Source: a virus. From it: a stretch of DNA of 20,487 bases. The DNA is taken from positions 1 through 20,487 of IMG/VR virus record IMGVR_UViG_3300009593_000159. The stretch is one strand, 5' to 3'. The position numbers and the translations under genes are program-made. The notes under the pieces were generated by a model. The model was not told the origin of the DNA. It saw only the letters and a program-made list of their open reading frames with translations, and searched no databases. Shown here in pieces: positions 2,769-20,487 of the stretch (within the stretch, counting starts at the first letter, position 1; each line of letters opens with the position of its first letter).

Positions 2769-3196
2769 TTAATTCCTAGTTCTTTTTCGGTAATCACTTT
2801 AAATTCCCATTGTCTATCGGCACAATATTCTCTTGCTTCTTTCCATTTTGTTTGGTTTGTGGCATATGTATATGCTTCTTTTATGTAACGTGGTGTTTGT
2901 CGTTTTGGTTTTTTAGGTGGACTGCACTGCTTTAGTGGTTTTACTTCAATAATATATTTTTTTACTCTACCATCAGTTTCTTTTACCTTCATGTAGAAAT
3001 CTGGAAAGTATCTGCGAGGTTTTCCATCAAAGACATAGGGAATAATAATTTCTTCACTTGCCCATTCTAATACATTTGCATTCTTATCACAGTAAACCAT
3101 AAATTTTCTTTCCCATAATGATCGAAATATTATATTAGTAGGATCACCTTTATATTTGTGAGGAAAAGTTGGATAATACTTTCCTTTATAAGCCAT
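2765..3196 (-). CDS. 4: gp4-like head-completion nuclease
   Basis: A 143-residue protein matching the T4 gp4 (gp50) head-completion family in size (T4: about 150 residues) and motif. It has a PD-(D/E)XK-type nuclease layout: FRSLWERKF with Glu29, KPRRYFPDF with Asp66, then YIIEVKP giving Glu84-x-Lys86. This resembles the TnsA-like fold, in which Glu, Asp and E-x-K bind the metal. Gp4 acts at the end of head maturation so that tails can join; the nuclease activity is inferred from the motif. The start ATG is at 3196-3194, 24 bases downstream of a CTAAATAG box on the same strand, and the gene overlaps the following 114-aa gene by 4 nt. Confidence 0.85.
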   Translation of the reverse strand: MAYKGKYYPTFPHKYKGDPTNIIFRSLWERKFMVYCDKNANVLEWASEEIIIPYVFDGKPRRYFPDFYMKVKETDGRVKKYIIEVKPLKQCSPPKKPKRQTPRYIKEAYTYATNQTKWKEAREYCADRQWEFKVITEKELGIK

Positions 3197-3204
3197 CTAA
3201 ATAG
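3197..3204 (+). promoter_or_regulatory. Probable late promoter for gp54 (CTAAATAG box)
   Basis: CTAAATAG on the plus strand begins at the base immediately upstream of the gp4 start codon and lies 25 bases before the GTG of gp54. It differs from the T4 late consensus TATAAATA at the first two positions. The distance to the start codon equals that of the canonical box at 4075 (23 bases between box end and ATG) to within two bases. Confidence 0.6.
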
Positions 3205-3220
3205 AAATGATATAATACAT

Positions 3221-3228
3221 CTATTTAG
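3221..3228 (-). promoter_or_regulatory. Probable late promoter for gp4 (CTAAATAG box)
   Basis: The minus strand reads CTAAATAG from 3228 to 3221, 24 bases before the gp4 ATG. It is an exact inverted copy of the box at 3197-3204, so the two promoters face each other across 16 bases. The late-promoter role is inferred from resemblance to TATAAATA and from spacing. Confidence 0.6.
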
Positions 3229-3229
3229 A

Positions 3230-4060
3230 GTGTCTGCTCCATTTCCAAAGAAAATATCTCAGATATTACCAAAGTTCCAGAACGTTGCTCAAAGTTCTCA
3301 TTATCTGGTTAAGTTTGGTTTGCCTGGTGGAAAACTGAGAAAGGTATTAAGAAGTAAAGGTGTAGATTATAGATTTCATACACATGATATAGGATTACTT
3401 TGCAACTCTGCAGTTTTGCCTGGATCTACTTTTGCTACAGAAGTGGTTCAAGGTGAGTTTCAAGGTGTAACTGAGACGATACCACATACAAGAAATTTTA
3501 CCAGAATTAAATTAGAGTTTTATGTAGATAATGAATATAGAACACTTAAGTTCTTAGAGCATTGGATGGAATTTATTACAGGAGCATCTTCAGCAGATTC
3601 TGCTCGTGGTGGATATAATTTTAAATTACATTATCCAGAACAATATAGATCACAGACAACTAAGATAGTTAAGTTTGAAAAGAATTACAGACAAAATATG
3701 GAGTGGAATTTTGTTGGGTTATATCCTATTGCATTAGATTCTACTAGAGTTCAGTATCAAAGTTCTCAGGTATTAAAAGCAAGTTGTGCTTTTGCCTTTG
3801 ATAGATATGTTTGCGGAAGAGCAGATTCATTCGCTCAAGCTAAAAATATTGATAAGAATACAAAGGGACCTCATGCTGGTATTGCTGCCGATGATAAAGA
3901 AAGAATTTTACTTTTAAATCCAACTACTACTCCAAATGATCAAAGAGTAGATGAACTGACGTCAACATTTCAGAATACTAACCTGAGTATGGACCTTGCA
4001 TCATATTATAGTAATGATGCCCTTTCTGCTTTTACTATTAGTGAAGGTAGAGTAAAATAA
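3230..4060 (+). CDS. 54: gp54-like baseplate tail-tube initiator
   Basis: A 276-residue protein of the T4 gp54 class (T4: 320 residues), which binds the completed baseplate with gp48 and starts tube assembly. The segment NRQ-MEWNFVGLYPIALDST followed by QVLKASCAFAFDRYVCGRA parallels the gp54 pattern of GCIPISV, a strand pair, then FDVTFAYRVMQAG. The LKFLEHWMEFITG helix matches the RAMQDWVN region. I choose GTG at 3230 because the protein then begins (M)SAPFPKKISQILPKFQNV, which looks like a real N-terminus. The upstream in-frame ATG at 3158 lies inside gp4 on the other strand and upstream of the promoter box. The next in-frame Met is over 100 residues in. The only ribosome-binding hint is a weak AGAG overlapping the GTG. 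Confidence 0.82.
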   Translation: MSAPFPKKISQILPKFQNVAQSSHYLVKFGLPGGKLRKVLRSKGVDYRFHTHDIGLLCNSAVLPGSTFATEVVQGEFQGVTETIPHTRNFTRIKLEFYVDNEYRTLKFLEHWMEFITGASSADSARGGYNFKLHYPEQYRSQTTKIVKFEKNYRQNMEWNFVGLYPIALDSTRVQYQSSQVLKASCAFAFDRYVCGRADSFAQAKNIDKNTKGPHAGIAADDKERILLLNPTTTPNDQRVDELTSTFQNTNLSMDLASYYSNDALSAFTISEGRVK

Positions 4061-4105: not shown

Positions 4106-4825
4106 ATGCCTTTACCAAAGATTGCGACTCCTTCTTATGAGTTAGTTGTTCCTTCTACTAAGAAGAAACTTAAATATAGACCTTTTTTAGTTAAAGAGGA
4201 GAAGATTCTGATTATCGCTATGGAAAGTCAGGATAATAAACAAATAGCAAATGCTATCAAAGATGTTCTTTCTTCTTGTATTTTAACTAAAAGTGTGAAA
4301 GTTAATGAACTTTCTACTTTTGATATTGAATACCTCTTTCTTAACATTCGTGGTAAGTCTGTTGGAGAAGAAGTTGAAGTTATGATTACTTGTCCTGATG
4401 ATGGTGAGACTCAAGTTCCCACGACCATTAATTTGGATGATATAAAGGTTAATATTAATAAGGATCATACTCCAGATATTAAATTAGATGATCAGTATAC
4501 TTTAAGAATGAAGTATCCATCTATGGAAGAATTCATTAAAACTAATTTTTCTGTTGATGGGGATGTGAATGTTGATGACACATTTAAATTAATTGCATCA
4601 TGTGTTGAACAAGTTTATTCTGAAGAGGAATCTTGGGCTGGTGCTGATTGTACAAAGAAAGAATTGTCCGACTTTGTAGAATCTCTTAATTCAAAACAGT
4701 TTAAGAATATTGAAAAATTTTTCGATACTATGCCTAAATTGTCACATACCGTTAAGGTGACTAATCCAAAAACAAAAAAGGAAAATGAAATAGTGTTGGA
4801 GGGTTTGCAGAGTTTTTTCGTATAA
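4106..4825 (+). CDS. 26: gp26-like baseplate hub assembly protein
   Basis: A 239-residue protein of the T4 gp26 hub family (T4: 208 residues). It opens with the typical LPKIATPSYELVVPSTKKKL and KYRPFLVKEEKILIIAMES segments, continues with the IANAIKDVLSSCIL helix and the LSTFDIEYLFLNIRGKSVGE motif, followed by a beta region around TCPDDGE. In T4, gp26 helps assemble the central hub and is not abundant in virions. The gene follows a canonical late promoter. The last codons read AGT TTT TTC GTA TAA, a homopolymeric slippery heptamer two codons from the stop. The short gp51-like ORF lies in the -1 frame with no stop codon in between, so a frameshifted fusion of about 298 residues is possible. 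Confidence 0.85.
   Translation: MPLPKIATPSYELVVPSTKKKLKYRPFLVKEEKILIIAMESQDNKQIANAIKDVLSSCILTKSVKVNELSTFDIEYLFLNIRGKSVGEEVEVMITCPDDGETQVPTTINLDDIKVNINKDHTPDIKLDDQYTLRMKYPSMEEFIKTNFSVDGDVNVDDTFKLIASCVEQVYSEEESWAGADCTKKELSDFVESLNSKQFKNIEKFFDTMPKLSHTVKVTNPKTKKENEIVLEGLQSFFV
4813..4819 (+). other. Candidate -1 ribosomal frameshift site (T TTT TTC)
   Basis: In the gp26 frame the bases are phased T|TTT|TTC, the X-XXY-YYZ pattern of a -1 slippery heptamer. Slipping back one base keeps both codons as Phe and continues CGT ATA AGT ATG into the 57-aa ORF starting at 4828. Tail assembly chaperones immediately upstream of tape measure genes are often made this way in lambda-like and other tailed phages. 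I cannot see a clear downstream stem-loop or pseudoknot by eye. This is a hypothesis. Confidence 0.45.
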
Positions 4826-4827
4826 GT

Positions 4828-5001
4828 ATGTCTCATGAAGATCTTGAGTCATACTATAAAATTAATTTTGCTTTGATGCAACACCATAAATATAGCTTAA
4901 CGGAGTTAGAAAATATGATGCCTTGGGAAAGAGAAATTTATCTCGCACTCCTACAGCAATATATTGAAGAAGAAAATTTAAAGCAACAACAAAATGGCTG
5001 A
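4828..5001 (+). CDS. Short 57-aa gp51-like hub assembly / tail chaperone ORF
   Basis: A 57-residue reading frame from ATG 4828 to TGA 4999-5001. It starts MSHEDLESYYKINFALMQHH and contains SLTELENMMPWEREIYLALL and QQYIEEENLKQQQ, a mostly helical sequence. The MPWEREIYLALL-type motif is common in short ORFs downstream of gp26-like or tail-chaperone genes and just before tape measure genes. By position it corresponds to T4 gene 51 (hub assembly catalyst) but is far shorter than T4 gp51 (249 residues), so homology is uncertain. The ATG lies two bases after the gp26 stop, and the 3' end overlaps the next gene by 8 nt. It may be translated separately, as a -1 frameshift extension of gp26, or both. 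Confidence 0.75.
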   Translation: MSHEDLESYYKINFALMQHHKYSLTELENMMPWEREIYLALLQQYIEEENLKQQQNG

Positions 5002-6610
5002 ACCCATTCAATCACCAATAGGAGGAGGAATACGTGCTGTAAGACGCAACGTTTCTTCTAGTATCTTTACGGGTGGTGGTGTTGTAAGACAAAGACAAGA
5101 TTCTGTAGCAGCAAATGCAACAGTTAGAAATTCTGCGTTATTGGGTGGTATTGCATCTCAAGTTAGTAATGTAAGTCAACAGACAATCCAGTTAAATAAG
5201 TCTTTACAAATTATTTCGCAAAGTTTAGCAGTTGGTGCTAATTTAGATAGACAAAGAGAAGCAGCAAATGCTCAAAGACAAAGAAGGTTAATAAGTCAAG
5301 GATTAGCAGATGCAAATGAGCAGAGTATAGAGGGTAAGATTAGAGAATCTCTAATGGAACCTGTTAAGAAGATAGGTAAGAAAGTACAATTTGGATTAAG
5401 TAGATTAGTTAATGTATTTTTTATATTAGCTGGTGGTTGGCTACTAGAAAAAACTGTTAATATGCTTAAGGCATTAAGTGGTGATAATCAAGAGAAGTTT
5501 GTAAAGATAAGAAATGATTTAATAAAGGGATTATTAGTCATTGGAGGAACGGTTGCTCTTGTTACCGCAGGAATGGGAGCTTTGACTATAGGTATAGGAA
5601 AACTTTCGTTGGCATTAGGGTCAGTTGCTCTTGGTGGTATATTAATAAGACCATTAGATAAATTAAAGAATGCGATATTTGGTGTTGCCAGAAACGCAAC
5701 GGGAATGAAACCACCTACGGGAGGTGCTATACCAGGAGGACAACCAACTAATAAAAATCAAAGAGTACCTAAAGGTAGTACTCCTATTGGATCTAAACAA
5801 TACCAAAATAATAAAGGTAATCTTAACAAGGTTTCAATATTTGTTACTTCCATGTTTGGTGTGAAAAATGTACTTGAAGGGAAACCTTTCCAGTATGAAG
5901 TTATGGATCAAGGTGCAGGATGGGCTGGTGCTAATATTGGAGGTAAGCTTGGTTCTAAAATTCCTGGACCTCCTTGGTTTAAAGCATTAGCAGGTGTAAT
6001 TACTAGTATGATTTTCTTCCAAGGGGGTTATGGTGCTAGAGGAACTGTCCAAGACATAGTAGGAACAGAGAAATTAGACGAACTTCAAAAAGAACTGGAG
6101 AGTGGTAATGTTCAAGCTGGAATGATGAGTCCTATAACAGATGAAGATTTACTTAATGAAATTGAAAATCAGAGACCTGTAAGAGAGGATTTCAAAGATA
6201 AAAAAGAATATAAAAAAGCTTTAGAAGAATTTCAATTAGATAAGGGTGATAGGATAAACGAATTAACATCTAGAATTGAATCAAAGAAGAAACCACAAGG
6301 GTTTATGAGAGGTCTTTCTGGTTTTGGTGATTTAATAACTGGTAATGCATTTGATTTTGATAAAAGAGGTAGTTTTCTTGAACCAAAGAAAAATGATGTG
6401 AATGTTTCCAAGAATATTTCTTCTTTACAGGAACCTAAACCTAGTGTAATTCCATACCCTAATGTTGGTGATGGTGGTGATCCTAATGCAGCAGGTGGAA
6501 ATGTTGCTGCTGGTGCTGTTGGTGGTGGTGTTCCTGTTATACCACCATCAAATGTAGATAATAGTTATATATTTCTTGCATTTAAAAACTATCAGGTAGT
6601 TCCAACATAA
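4994..6610 (+). CDS. Putative tail tape-measure-like / hub-associated protein A (538 aa)
   Basis: A 538-residue protein with no family I can name firmly. Residues 40-130 look helical and polar, with Gln/Arg-rich RQREAANAQRQRR. Strongly hydrophobic stretches lie at about 133-156 (FFILAGGWLL), 177-218 (alternating Gly/Ala/Leu/Val) and 330-345. Residues 355-430 are charged and probably coiled coil, and residues 480-525 are Gly/Pro-rich before a short conserved-looking tail (FLAFKNYQVVPT). Long helices plus membrane-like segments, and the position directly after the gp26/gp51 chaperone genes, are typical of tape measure proteins, which fill the tail lumen and may enter the host membrane. T4 gp29 is 590 residues. 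The layout resembles the next gene, so the two may be related. Function is inferred. Confidence 0.75.
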   Translation: MAEPIQSPIGGGIRAVRRNVSSSIFTGGGVVRQRQDSVAANATVRNSALLGGIASQVSNVSQQTIQLNKSLQIISQSLAVGANLDRQREAANAQRQRRLISQGLADANEQSIEGKIRESLMEPVKKIGKKVQFGLSRLVNVFFILAGGWLLEKTVNMLKALSGDNQEKFVKIRNDLIKGLLVIGGTVALVTAGMGALTIGIGKLSLALGSVALGGILIRPLDKLKNAIFGVARNATGMKPPTGGAIPGGQPTNKNQRVPKGSTPIGSKQYQNNKGNLNKVSIFVTSMFGVKNVLEGKPFQYEVMDQGAGWAGANIGGKLGSKIPGPPWFKALAGVITSMIFFQGGYGARGTVQDIVGTEKLDELQKELESGNVQAGMMSPITDEDLLNEIENQRPVREDFKDKKEYKKALEEFQLDKGDRINELTSRIESKKKPQGFMRGLSGFGDLITGNAFDFDKRGSFLEPKKNDVNVSKNISSLQEPKPSVIPYPNVGDGGDPNAAGGNVAAGAVGGGVPVIPPSNVDNSYIFLAFKNYQVVPT

Positions 6611-6611
6611 C

Positions 6612-8120
6612 ATGGATCCACAAGCTTTAGTACAATCAACTTCTAGTCTTAATAATATAAGTAGATCATTTAATGGTCTTGCTGCTGGTATTACACGTTC
6701 TAGTTTTTTAGCTAGATCTATTGCTAAAACTGTTAAGACTGATAATATAGGTAAAAAGAAACTTTTAACATCTGATGCTACTTATTTTAAGAGAAGAAGA
6801 GAATCATTTTTAAGGAGGAGAAGAGAAGATCAACTTGAAGCATCTACAGTTAATGGTGCAGCAAAGGCAAGAGGAAAAGCTATAACAAATACTGGAAAGG
6901 GAGTTCTAGGTAGGATACTTAGTTTCCTTGGAATTGTTTTGATAGGATTTGTGGTTCAAAGATTGCCACAGATTCTAAAAGGTGTTACTGCACTTATTAA
7001 AAGGATTACTCAGGTAGTTCAAATTTTTAAGGGATTTATAAATGGGGTGATTGGTGTCTTTGAAAGTATGTCTGGTAAGTTGGATCAAGTAATTGGAATG
7101 TTTCGTTTCTGGGATTTTGGTAAGCAGAGAGATGAGGCAGAAGATTCGTTCAATAAGGTTAATGATAAAATTAAAAATCTGAATACAAGTTTCATTGCTG
7201 GAGTCAATAGATATCAGGATGATGGTGATTTGGATGAAGAAATAGAGAGAATTGATGCAGAATCGAAACAGAAAGAGAGAATATTTGGGGGTGAAGACGA
7301 TCCAGGTGCAAAAAACCAATGGTGGGATTTTCTTGACTTATTCCCAAATAAAAATAAGACAGAAGGGGAAGGTAATGAAGATGGTCAAAAAGATGATATT
7401 AAAGAAGAGGTTAAGAATGAAGTTTTAGAGTACTTTGAGGGAGGAGAAATTAAGGCTGGTGAAACAGCACTTGTAGGTGAAGGTAAGGATGGTAAATCTA
7501 AGGATAGGGAATTATTCACCCCTAAGCAGGATGGATTTATTCTTCCAAATAATATAACTGAAAGATTAATGGAAGCATCTAGTTTCTTAGAATCTGACAA
7601 ATTGCAAAATAGCATGAAATCAAGTGTTGAAAACTTTGATATCAGTACTATGAATGATATGATGAAGGGATTTAGTAGTGTGATGGATACTATGGGAAAT
7701 ATTGAAGATCCTTCTAAGAATATTGAAAAAATTGATGATGTTAAAGAGGAAAAGGATAAAGGAAATCGTGGATTCCTTGGTTGGAGATCTTCTGTTGATT
7801 GGATGACAGGTGGATTGACTGATTTGGATAAAAAAGGAAATGAATTTAATCTTATTAATCCTAAGGATGATGATTCAGAAATTGAATCTTTATTTAAGTC
7901 TATAAAGACAGATTCTGATGGTCTTATTGATGAGATAACACCAGAAAGAAAAGGTCAAAAAATCATGATGCCTCCACCACCAGGATTAGGAGCAGGATCT
8001 CAATCTAAGAATACACCACAAAGTTCTGGTGGTATACCTAAGTCAGGAGGAAAGTCTGGTGGGTTAAATATAAAGGAATACCATAAGCATATAACAACGT
8101 TAATTACAGCATATACTTAG
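6612..8120 (+). CDS. Putative tail tape-measure-like protein B (502 aa)
   Basis: A 502-residue protein starting one base after the stop of the previous gene. Its layout is an N-terminal polar helical region, a basic cluster (FKRRRESFLRRRRED, 59-73), hydrophobic stretches at about 97-120 (ILSFLGIVLIGFVV) and 122-150, acidic coiled-coil-like stretches (170-225 and 250-275), and then residues 276-314. That last region reads FEGGEIKAGETALVGE then RELFTPKQDGFILPNN, which resembles the GG-x-aG-x-alVGE-ELF-P-G-I-pN motif seen in many phage tape measure proteins. The C-terminus is Pro/Gly-rich and ends in KEYHKHITTLITAYT. I infer a tape-measure or tail-lumen role; which of the two adjacent proteins sets tail length cannot be told from sequence. 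The stop TAG touches the gp27 ATG. Confidence 0.75.
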   Translation: MDPQALVQSTSSLNNISRSFNGLAAGITRSSFLARSIAKTVKTDNIGKKKLLTSDATYFKRRRESFLRRRREDQLEASTVNGAAKARGKAITNTGKGVLGRILSFLGIVLIGFVVQRLPQILKGVTALIKRITQVVQIFKGFINGVIGVFESMSGKLDQVIGMFRFWDFGKQRDEAEDSFNKVNDKIKNLNTSFIAGVNRYQDDGDLDEEIERIDAESKQKERIFGGEDDPGAKNQWWDFLDLFPNKNKTEGEGNEDGQKDDIKEEVKNEVLEYFEGGEIKAGETALVGEGKDGKSKDRELFTPKQDGFILPNNITERLMEASSFLESDKLQNSMKSSVENFDISTMNDMMKGFSSVMDTMGNIEDPSKNIEKIDDVKEEKDKGNRGFLGWRSSVDWMTGGLTDLDKKGNEFNLINPKDDDSEIESLFKSIKTDSDGLIDEITPERKGQKIMMPPPPGLGAGSQSKNTPQSSGGIPKSGGKSGGLNIKEYHKHITTLITAYT

Positions 8121-15644: not shown

Positions 15645-16637
15645 ATGGCAATAGCACCAGTAAATAAGTTTATTAATATTGCCGTTCCTGTTGCACCAGG
15701 TGTGCAGAAACTTTATGAGGTTCCAACAGGAACTTCTGCTTTATTATTGTATGCACAAGTATCTAATGTTGCTGTTGGGACAACTTATCCTACAACTACA
15801 TTTTGGCAGAGAAGAACGCAGAGAAGTACTGGTAGTGAAAGAGATATACGAGTTATAAAATCAGCAGAGATACCACCACAGGATGCATTAATAATGGTGG
15901 ATGGTAGAATAGTATTAGAAAAAACACCATTAGTAGTTGACAGTTTATACATTCGTGGAACCCAACAAGGTGTTGGTATTATTACTGATGTTCAATATGA
16001 TGAACCAAGTGGAATTGCTACAGTTGTTACGAAGATAAAGCATGGATTTAATGCTGGTGATCAGATTAGTATGGGTGGAATGTATTTCACTTGCCCAAGT
16101 TATTCTGGTATAACAACTAATATCTTCCCAGATCCTCAGAGATCTTATACTGTAGATACTGTTGATGGTAATGTAGGAACATCTAAAACATTCTCAATTG
16201 ATATTGGTGGTGCTAGTGGAAACGAACATGTTTATAGCACAGCAATTCATAGATTTGTTAGAGCAGTTCCTCAGGCTGTAGAAGTAACTGCAAGTTCAGG
16301 TGTGGCAGTTGGAACAAAGTTTAATGTAAGTGCTGCAACTTATACTGGATCAACTGGAGAAATAACTTTAAATATTGGAAATAATTCTTTAGCAAATGGA
16401 GATACGATTAAGATAGCAGATAATTCTATAATAATGACTTGTACTATGGATAATCATTATAGTGAACATTCTTATCCTAGAGCAACAGATCCAGCATCTA
16501 ATACTGCATTAACTCTTGCTGTTGCTGTTGCAAACGAATCAATTCGAGTAAATGTTGGTAAGTCTTATTCTGGTGGATACGTTGCTCCATTAGAAATGGA
16601 ATTAATAGCAAGTATCCTAGAGAATAGTAATGTCTAA
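15645..16637 (+). CDS. 330-aa virion structural protein, function unknown
   Basis: I do not recognise a characterised family. The 330-residue protein is almost entirely beta-type. It begins [23 protein letters not shown]-like strands (residues 7-29), then [28 protein letters not shown] with a [17 protein letters not shown] segment (about 150-165), a [19 protein letters not shown] stretch, and near the end [19 protein letters not shown]. There is no signal peptide, membrane segment or catalytic signature. The start ATG follows the previous stop after one base, and the 3' end overlaps the next gene by 8 bases (ATGTCTAA). Its position among fibre genes suggests a baseplate or fibre-adaptor protein, which is inference from context. 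Confidence 0.78.
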
Positions 16638-18447
16638 GAGATATTTAAGTGGGCGGGTTAAAAGATTACCGCAAGATCAATTAAAAGATGATAGGTATAA
16701 GTATCTTGGTCTAGAACAGGCAGAACCAAATCTTGCCGATCCAATTACTAGTCCTGCAGTTCCTTCTGGTCAACAGTATCAGTTGGTTGCTATTCCTGGT
16801 TTTGAAGGTAAGAGATATTGGGTTCCTGTTGGTGGTGGATTAATTCCAGGTGCTATAAGTGTATATGATGAAGGAGTTCTTGTTAGTGCTGCGAGTAGTG
16901 TAACTCAACTTAATTTTGTTGGTGCAGCAGTAACAGCACAAGTAGATGTTCAAAATCCTTCAGGGCATCCAGGTATTGCTGCAACTGTAACTGTTGTACC
17001 TGTTACGATTGGTTCTGAGCCTCCAGTTAATCCTATTCATGGAGAATTGTGGTGGGAAGATGATATTGGAGATTTATGTATTTACTATAATGATGGTGAT
17101 ACTAGTCAGTGGGTTACTGTAGTTGCTAGTGGAAACGGTGGAGGTCCCACAGGTCCTGTTGGTCCTACAGGTCCAACTGGAATAACTGGTCCTTCTGGTC
17201 CTCCAGGTCCTGCATCTACAGTACCAGGACCTCCTGGTCCTACAGGTGACGATGGTGCTGCTGGTCCTCCAGGTTCTGATGGTCCTCCAGGTTCTGATGG
17301 TTCTCCAGGTCCAAGTGGTCCTCCAGGTCCAGATGGTCCTGCTGGTCCTCCAGGTGATGATGGTCCAGCTGGTCCTCCAGGTCCTGCTGGTGGTCCTCCA
17401 GGTCCAAGTGGTCCTCCAGGTCCAAGTGGTCCTCCAGGTAATGATGGTGGATCTGGTACTCCAGGTCCTCCAGGTAATGATGGTCCTGCAGGTCCTCCAG
17501 GTCCAAGTGGTGGTCCTCCAGGTCCTCCAGGTCCAAGTGGTCCTCCAGGTCCTGATGGTGGTAGTGGTTCTGATGGTCCTCCAGGTCCTGCAGGTCCTCC
17601 AGGTCCAAGTGGTGGTCCTCCAGGTCCTCCAGGTCCTCCTGGAAATGATGGTTCTGATGGTTCTGGTAGTCCTGGTCCTCCAGGTACAATAGGTCCAAGT
17701 GGTCCTCCAGGTGCTGATGGTAATGATGGTTCTGATGGTTCAACTGGTCCAAGTGGTCCTCCAGGTACAATAGGTCCAAGTGGTCCTCCAGGTCCTCCAG
17801 GTCCTCCAGGTTCAGGTGGAACAGCAAATACTGATCCAGCATTTGACATATATGTAAGAAATACCCAAACAACTCCATCAACTATATCAGTTACTTTTGA
17901 TACTACCAATTATGATAGTTGGTTAGTTTTCGTTACTTCTGGTGGTGGAGGAGCTGGTGGTGGTTCTTCCAGTGGTAACTCTGGTGGAGGAGGCGGCGGT
18001 GGCGGTACAGCCATTCGTAGATATTCTGCTGCAGAAATGGGTAATGGTCAGTGTACTTTATTTGTTGGACAAGGTGGTGCTGCTGGTCAAGGTGGAGGTA
18101 ATGGATCTTCTGGTCAGTATTCTCAGTTCTATCCAAACTCAAGTCAGTATGCTATAACTGCTTATCCTGGTCAAGGTGGTGTTGGTGGTAATTCTGGTGC
18201 TATTGTTTCTGGTGGTGGAGGAGGAGTTGGATATGGTGATATAAATTCCTTTGGTGGTGAAGGTACTCCTGGTGCTGGTGGAGAAACTGGTAGAGGTGGA
18301 GAAACTTATTGGGGTGGTGGTCACGTTTGGACTCCTGGTGGAGGTGGAAGAGGAGTTCAGGGTAATGCTAATCCTATAGGAATAAATGATGGAAAACCAG
18401 GGCAAATTGTAGTTTTTTCATACAAGAAGAGTAAATTTACAGTTTAA
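16630..18447 (+). CDS. Collagen-like tail fibre with glycine-rich tip domain, candidate adhesin (605 aa)
   Basis: A 605-residue modular protein. Residues 1-125 form a probable virion-anchor region ([40 protein letters not shown]). Residues about 130-168 are a Trp/Tyr module ([25 protein letters not shown]). Residues 172-396 are some 70 Gly-X-Y triplets, a collagen-like triple helix with occasional one-Gly interruptions. Residues 400-435 are a beta segment. Residues 438-577 are a glycine-rich domain with runs such as [18 protein letters not shown] and [12 protein letters not shown], and the protein closes with GQIVVFSY. Glycine-rich ends of this kind are known at the receptor-binding tips of phage fibres (T-even gp38-type polyglycine adhesins). 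A receptor-binding role is therefore plausible but inferred. A fibre-assembly chaperone-like gene follows. Confidence 0.85.
17143..17817 (+). repeat. Collagen-coding GGT CCT CCA repeat tract
   Basis: About 675 bases of tandem 9-base and 18-base units built from GGTCCTCCA and GGTCCAAGT, encoding Gly-X-Y triplets. Codon choice is nearly uniform (GGT for Gly, CCT/CCA for Pro), so long direct repeats exist at the DNA level. Similar tracts lie in the tail gene at 19009. The lack of stop codons in all frames here produces spurious long open frames. Confidence 0.95.
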
Positions 18448-18988: not shown

Positions 18989-19008
18989 AAGAGGTATATT
19001 AATACAGA

Positions 19009-20487
19009 ATGTCCAAGATTGATTTTCCAGCTAATCCTAATGTAGGTCAAGATTATTCCTACAATAATTCCATTTGGAGATGGGATGGTTTTGTCTGGAG
19101 AAGAATTCCCGATCCAGGTGCTCCAGGTCAAACTGGTCCTACTGGTCCTCCAGGTTTAACTGGACCTGCTGGTCCCGATGGTCCTACAGGTCCTGATGGT
19201 CCTCCAGGTCCTGCTGGTGGTCCTCCAGGACCAACTGGTCCTTCAGGTAATGATGGTGCTGATGGTCCTATTGGACCTCCTGGTATTGGCGGACCTACTG
19301 GTCCAACTGGTCCTAGTGGTGGTCCAGGTGCTCCAGGTCCAAGTGGTGGAACTGGTCCTGCTGGTCCTGTTGGTCCTGTTGGTCCTACTGGTCCCGATGG
19401 TCCTCCAGGTCCAACTGGTCCAGGTAATACAGGAACGATTGATAGTGTAAAGCAATATAGAACTACTGGTGTAGAGAGAAGTTGTGAAAGCCCGATCTTT
19501 GTAGTTAATAACAATACAATAGGTATTGGATCGACAAGTAACGCTTACGGAAATAGATTTACTCAGAATGATGATCCTACTACTGCTAATGGTGGTAGTT
19601 GGACTGTATGTGATGGAGATTTATGGTATGATATGGACTCTGGTGCTGGTGGAGGACCTGGTCCTGCTGGACCTCCTGGTCCTCCTGGTCCTACTGGTGG
19701 TGGACCTCCTGGTCCAACTGGTCCTGCTGGTCCTCCAGGTGGAGATGGTCCTACTGGTCCTGATGGTCCTGATGGTCCTCCAGGTCCTCCAGGTTCGGGT
19801 GGCGGTGGTGCTAATGTAGAAACATCAGATACACCTCCAACAAGTCCTAGTGATGGTGATCTCTGGTGGGATTCTATTAATGGACGATTAAATGTTTATT
19901 ATCAAGATGCTGATAGTTCACAATGGGTTAGTGCTAGTGGTGTAGGAATTGGATCTACTGGTGCTACTGGTCCTGCTGGTCCTCCAGGTCCAACAGGTGG
20001 AGATGGTCCTCCTGGTCCAGGTGGTACTGGTCCTGCTGGTCCTCCAGGTCCTGCTGGTCCAACTGGTCCTGCTGGTCCTCCAGGAACTGGTAGCGTATCA
20101 GATAAAATAGAAGAGGGTAATAGTAAAGTAGAAGTTATTGATACTGGAGTTGGTTTAGGTACTGTTTTTGTCAATACAGAGGGTACTGATCGTTGGGAAT
20201 TTACCCATCAAGGTCATCTTCTTCCAGTAGCACATGAACAATATGATATTGGATCAGCAGATCAAAAAGTTAGACACTTATTCTTATCTGATAACAGTAT
20301 AAAATTTGTTAAGAGTGATAATACAGTTAATTCATTAGGTATATGGACAGGTACTGATAAATTAACCTGGACTGGATCATATGGTTTTATGAATTTAAGT
20401 GGGCATATTATTCCCACTGATAATGCACAGTATGATCTAGGTAATGCAGAATATAAGATTAGACATTTATTCTTATCTGATAATAGT
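19009..20487 (+). CDS. Modular collagen-like tail fibre protein (5' 493 codons, 3' end outside window)
   Basis: From ATG 19009 the frame stays open for exactly 493 codons to the last base, so the gene continues beyond the window. The product starts [20 protein letters not shown] and [11 protein letters not shown], a short Trp/Tyr module, followed by collagen-like Gly-X-Y at residues 37-139. A beta segment and a second Trp/Tyr module ([12 protein letters not shown], about 185-211) lead into collagen 216-264. A third module ([20 protein letters not shown], about 271-309) leads into collagen 318-361. From 365 a beta domain begins, with two 63-aa-spaced repeats at 402 and 465 ([20 protein letters not shown] and [20 protein letters not shown]). 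That last motif is typical of phage tail fibres. It is probably a long trimeric fibre with hinges; the receptor-binding tip should lie downstream. Confidence 0.88.
20212..20487 (+). repeat. DIG...RHLFLSDNS tail fibre repeats (63-aa period)
   Basis: GH(L/I)(L/I)P...QYD(I/L)G followed by (V/I)RHLFLSDNS occurs at 20212 and again at 20401, spaced 189 bases. The DNA is near identical over the run encoding RHLFLSDN. Further copies probably follow outside the window. Confidence 0.8.

Follow-up and report, generated by a model that had tools for sequence, protein, structure and literature searches.

The gp26 gene in the analysed virus DNA very probably encodes two proteins: a short form, and a longer fusion in which a −1 ribosomal frameshift joins gp26 to a C-terminal T domain, so that the two would form a tail assembly chaperone pair of the lambda kind. 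The evidence read from the sequence consists of a slippery heptamer and its phase, an open −1 frame, their conservation, a covarying hairpin, and the homology of the fusion to T4-type gp51. The window, which is the whole 20,487-base virus fragment analysed here, has Prochlorococcus phages P-SSM2 and P-SSM5 as close relatives (approximately 84% identical over the region). The features of the window that are discussed are as follows.

3158–4060, plus strand: tail tube gene upstream of gp26 (Phage_TTP_2, E = 1.3e-18; PHROG 45 tail tube, E = 3.4e-36)
4106–4825, plus strand: gp26 gene, 0 frame; putative short chaperone form of 239 amino acids, equivalent to TAC-N and lambda gpG
4798–4803, plus strand: Shine-Dalgarno-like element GGAGGG, separated by 9 nt from the heptamer that follows
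4813–4819, plus strand: slippery heptamer T_TTT_TTC, in phase (X_XXY_YYZ) with gp26
4819–5001, plus strand: −1 frame extension (T domain), predicted to be joined to gp26 by the slip; the 57-residue open reading frame within it spans 4828–5001
4823–4825, plus strand: 0-frame stop codon TAA, one codon after the heptamer
4825–4855, plus strand: hairpin with a stem of 4825–4835 paired with 4845–4855; 5-nt spacer from the heptamer
4994–6610, plus strand: 538-residue protein, candidate of tape-measure type by position and hydrophobic segments
6612–8120, plus strand: 502-residue protein, second tape-measure candidate; the match to PHROG 305 (tape measure) is weak (E = 0.005) and suggestive only

The gp26 product matches the Pfam family T4_baseplate (PF12322) with 258.4 bits, above the curated cut-off of 24.5, and PHROG 150 with an E-value of 1.8e-82. 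The tail tube gene upstream is clear, and the tape-measure identity of the genes downstream is suggested by the weak match and by position. The T-domain frame overlaps at its end with the start codon (ATG at 4994) of the 538-residue gene, and searches of Pfam and PHROG gave no significant family match for the product of this gene. The two consecutive proteins with hydrophobic stretches encoded at 4994–8120 occupy a place that in T4-like phages is taken by a single tape-measure gene. Elsewhere in the window, putative tail fibre genes at 16630–18447 and 19000–20180 contain long collagen-like Gly-X-Y repeats (GPPGPP...), which give rise to long open frames on both strands.

Conservation of the heptamer and of the −1 frame

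The gp26 reading frame ends with the codons AGT TTT TTC GTA TAA, in which T_TTT_TTC is phased one codon before the stop, as the first-pass annotation had stated. Its placement of the 57-residue reading frame in the −1 frame is also correct: there is no −1 stop codon from the heptamer to 4999, and the frame terminates at 4999–5001. The slip product would have 298 residues, the size that had been estimated, with the junction ...LQSFF-RIS-MSHEDLESYYKINF.... The long open reading frames of the window contain 31 phased X_XXY_YYZ heptamers; therefore, a single such heptamer is little evidence, and conservation decides. Another phased heptamer, A_AAA_AAG at 4774–4780 within gp26, was considered as a second site and rejected, because the −1 frame meets a stop codon at 4786–4788 and the codons are not conserved in relatives.

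The junction set comprised 240 relatives from viral contigs together with named phages, and 248 junctions were read. The exact T_TTT_TTC is present in phase in 245 of them. The three exceptions are phiM12 (T_TTT_TTT), RHph_I1_9 (T_TTT_TTG), and contig L048, in which the site is lost. Dereplication at 85% nucleotide identity resulted in 116 representatives, all of which have the heptamer and a stop codon one codon later, in counts taken over related phages that are not phylogenetically independent. The site is also found in KVP40, D484, P-HM2, CC2, and S13, and it has the form T_TTT_TTT or T_TTT_TTG in pf16 and P10VF. Among pelagiphages, HTVC008M has T_TTT_TTT, and Mosig has T_TTT_TTC with the stop eight codons downstream; in Pseudomonas phage Milchi, the heptamer lies directly before the stop. 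A search of viral contigs with gp26 of Vibrio phage D484 returned no matches. The comparison of junctions that had been proposed as a check thus found both the phased heptamer and the −1 frame conserved in cyanophages, pelagiphages, KVP40, CC2, and S13, and also in pf16 and rhizobial phages, where the heptamer reads T_TTT_TTT or T_TTT_TTG.

The heptamer could in principle be a chance by-product of a conserved Phe-Phe pair, given that the pair is indeed conserved and that phased heptamers are frequent in the window. The probability of this explanation is negligible, and the conservation data already contradict it. Synonymous codons do not occur at the slip site, which is invariant in the 116 representatives, whereas Phe-Phe elsewhere in gp26 is coded TTT TTC in only 12 of 118 cases. 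The codon before Phe-Phe varies between AAT, TCT, AGT, GCT, and GAT, encoding Ser, Asn, Ala, or Asp, but its third base is always T (116/116, compared to 42% in the gene body). In contrast, the control heptamer T_TTT_TTA at 4183, located within a fully conserved R-P-F motif of the same gene, is kept in only eight of the 116 representatives. The heptamer is real and is conserved far beyond chance.

Every complete junction among the representatives has a −1 frame that stays open for 56–64 codons, and the +1 frame is shut within 21 codons; the frame that is kept open is always −1. In public records, the T domain bears the name "gp51" or "baseplate hub assembly catalyst", and the 57-residue reading frame is treated as a gene of its own. 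It is very unlikely that this frame stands alone as a gene whose translation starts at the ATG at 4828, two bases past the gp26 stop codon, through coupling or reinitiation and without any fusion being made. In favour of a separate gene are these annotations and the presence of an ATG just after the stop in 63 of the 71 representatives of the group that includes the window. However, none of the codons ATG, GTG, or TTG occurs among the first seven codons of the extension in any of the 34 representatives of the S-CAM4 group or in eight of the window group. Because the second reading frame has no start codon at its head in these phages, the fusion is the only reasonable product in about a third of the lineages. 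Where early ATGs exist, a Shine-Dalgarno sequence at the right distance accompanies none of them (0/69), and the ATG at 4828 of the window sits inside the hairpin stem. An invariant, phased heptamer would be purposeless if the two proteins were made separately, and T4-type gp51 has the same domain fused.

Contig L048 is 92% identical at gp26 to L023, and at 3205–3230 the heptamer is absent and the T domain follows gp26 in the same frame. This arrangement results from two missing bases and reflects either a fusion that exists in nature or an error in the sequence. If it is not an error, coding for the fusion alone would be odd for a phage that needs the short form, which counts against the frameshift reading. 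The Ackermannviridae relatives SE14 and ChubbyThor and Vibrio phage D503 have a T-domain-like reading frame at −1, but their gp26 genes contain no canonical heptamer at the junction. In contigs L269 (2150–2200), L273 (2265–2310), and L272 (2035–2080), gp26 ends with ATT TTC or CTT TTC, one further codon, and the stop. A −1 T domain that lacks the canonical heptamer, as in the Ackermannviridae relatives, is a point against frameshifting.

Elements flanking the slip site

The first-pass annotation had seen no obvious stimulatory RNA structure, which is incorrect. Folding of the downstream bases, as it had recommended, yields a stable hairpin that begins 5 nt after the heptamer and is conserved with covariation. 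The window hairpin has a folding energy of −12.2 kcal/mol, and none of 300 synonymous recodings is as stable. In the window group, 92.6% of the stem cells of the alignment can pair compared to 87.3% in shuffled alignments, and the covariation score is 0.156 compared to 0.070, a value reached by none of 500 shuffles. Stem pair 8/22 is UA, GC, or AU in different phages of this group, and shifting the stem partner along the alignment abolishes the pairing. The S-PM2 group has an AU-rich stem of 11 pairs, also with a double change, and the S-CAM4 group has a stem of the ACUCUUCC/GGAAGGGU type. The median hairpin energies are approximately −14 kcal/mol compared to approximately −5.5 kcal/mol when the same −1 peptide is recoded with synonymous codons, and the hairpin is more stable than the recodings at p ≤ 0.05 in 82–94% of the representatives. 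When 45-nt segments were scanned over 600 nt upstream and 120 nt downstream, the segment right after the heptamer was the most stable in two of the three groups and ranked third in the S-PM2 group. A sub-threshold match of the hairpin region to the Rfam family mir-1302 (28 bits, cut-off 62) was taken as chance. The conserved hairpin is likely to be a stimulator of frameshifting.

The GGAGGG element upstream of the heptamer is a probable second stimulator, by its sequence and position. In 79 of the 82 representatives of the window and S-PM2 groups, compared to a background of 13%, a Shine-Dalgarno-like tetramer lies within the 22 nt that precede the heptamer, with a spacer of 8–11 nt. At this position the Glu codon is GAG in 67 of 81 cases, whereas GAG accounts for 28% in the gene body. 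Only eight of the 34 representatives of the S-CAM4 group have such an element; hence it is not universal. It resembles the element that stimulates the frameshift in E. coli dnaX.

The flanking structure also bears on whether the fusion originates from slippage of RNA polymerase on the T-run rather than from ribosomal frameshifting, which is highly improbable. The run of six T is homopolymeric, and HTVC008M has eight T. However, six T is short for transcriptional slippage, and the conserved codon phase, the C at position 7 of the heptamer, and the hairpin at a spacing suited to the ribosome fit tandem slippage of tRNAs.

It is possible, and is proposed here tentatively, that the Shine-Dalgarno-like element, T_TTT_TTC, and the hairpin form a three-part cassette, in which the hairpin sequence differs between sister groups at the same spacing. 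The window-group hairpin may additionally hide the ATG of the second reading frame, so that the T domain would be made only as a fusion. If this is true, loss of frameshifting by gene duplication would explain the separate T4 genes 26 and 51, an order of origin of the two-gene and frameshift arrangements that we infer.

Relation to T4 gp26 and gp51 and to the lambda chaperones

The gp26 and gp51 proteins of T4 have long been listed as hub assembly factors, and the function of gp51 is unknown (PMC3004832). In profile comparisons, gp26 of the window matches T4-type gp26 with a probability of 99.0 and the first part of T4-type gp51 with a probability of 97.9, and T4-type gp51 and T4-type gp26 match each other with a probability of 98.8. 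The 57-residue reading frame matches the C-terminus of T4-type gp51 (probability 95.2, E = 2.8e-8) and also that of PHROG 150. In an alignment built with natural fusions, the gp26/T junction falls at the place of the shift. By these comparisons, gp51 of T4 is a paralogue of gp26 with the same C-terminal domain in frame. The description of the 57-residue reading frame as gp51-like is therefore right regarding its match to the gp51 C-terminus, but it corresponds only to the T domain. A gp26-like N-terminal domain and the C-terminal domain occur together in one chain in the fusion, which is the true equivalent of gp51 and is homologous to it over its whole length. In T4-type phages, gene 51 is separate and divergently oriented from gene 26, and gp26 is without the heptamer, whereas the window phage has one frameshifting gene. 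Thus, T4 would obtain the short and long forms from two genes and the window phage by frameshifting. The proposed equivalence of the gp26/gp51 pair to lambda G/GT is supported for the window, where the heptamer and the −1 frame are conserved, but T4 itself uses two paralogous genes.

The predicted structure of the naturally fused L048 protein (pLDDT 90, pTM 0.84) was compared to the PDB. VIA-align placed the HK97 tail assembly chaperone 2ob9 first, with a Z-score of 7.4 over 84 of 107 residues at an rmsd of 3.6, where values below 8 call for caution. It was followed by 3fgx (Z 7.1), and the next, unrelated entry had a Z-score of 4.0. Foldseek gave no significant match of the model to the PDB, and sequence-profile searches for a solved structure found none. 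The N-terminal domain thus appears similar, in the model, to the HK97 chaperone 2ob9, and the T domain is modelled as a helical extension. The window shares with lambda gpG/gpGT a predicted short form and −1-extended long form and a slip site near the 3′ end of the gene, and it may also share the gene order, in which the chaperone gene would be flanked by those for the tail tube and the tape measure (PMC5009743). It differs in the heptamer (T_TTT_TTC), in the larger N-terminal protein, and in the probable hairpin and Shine-Dalgarno-like stimulators found here. With a phased heptamer and a conserved open −1 frame that gives a C-terminal extension, as in TAC-N/TAC-NC pairs, gp26/T almost certainly belongs to the lambda G/GT class.

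Tail chaperones made by frameshifting are a classical finding, to which T4 is named as the exception in a 2016 review (PMC5009743). A passage in PMC10885494 credits a study by Vladimirov in 2022 with finding that some T4-like phages have separate short and long chaperone genes, and a section of PMC12846349 credits it with TAC-N genes of T4-like phages that have poly-T slippery sequences. The same section describes a chaperone frameshift with the motif GTTTTT in Vandenendeviridae and Andersonviridae. In these other phage families, as in the window, the chaperone gene has a poly-T site for a −1 shift at its 3′ end and the open −1 frame is conserved; that section contains no analysis of a heptamer plus hairpin (PMC12846349). 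The core finding is therefore of an already known type. No paper on frameshifting of the cyanophage gp26 gene turned up in our literature searches, which reached the 2022 study only through the papers that cite it. Vladimirov, Gautam, and Davidson reportedly identified the chaperone genes of T4-like phages in that study. As far as was searched, the new points are the covarying hairpin, the Shine-Dalgarno-like element, the observation that start codons are missing throughout entire groups, and the recognition that the T domain has been misannotated as gp51.

Proposed mechanism and implications

In the proposed mechanism, in which we infer the slippage itself, its rate, and the binding partners, most ribosomes would stop at the TAA at 4823 and release gp26, the short chaperone. 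A minority would pause on T_TTT_TTC with the hairpin ahead of them, and the GGAGGG behind, paired with 16S rRNA, would probably add to the pause. With tRNA-Phe occupying both sites, the paused ribosomes would slip back by one base and then continue translation to 5001, yielding the 298-residue gp26-T fusion. By analogy to lambda gpG/gpGT, the tape-measure protein may be coated by numerous short and few long molecules, and the latter may recruit tail tube subunits through their T domain.

As a natural −1 site that is well conserved and comes with variant hairpins, it is usable for reporter work in cyanobacteria. Frameshifting explains the tiny "gp51" in hundreds of cyanophage records, which is sometimes without a start codon or unannotated, as the C-terminal part of the frameshift product. 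It also supports a tail-chaperone role for gp26 and gp51 of T4.
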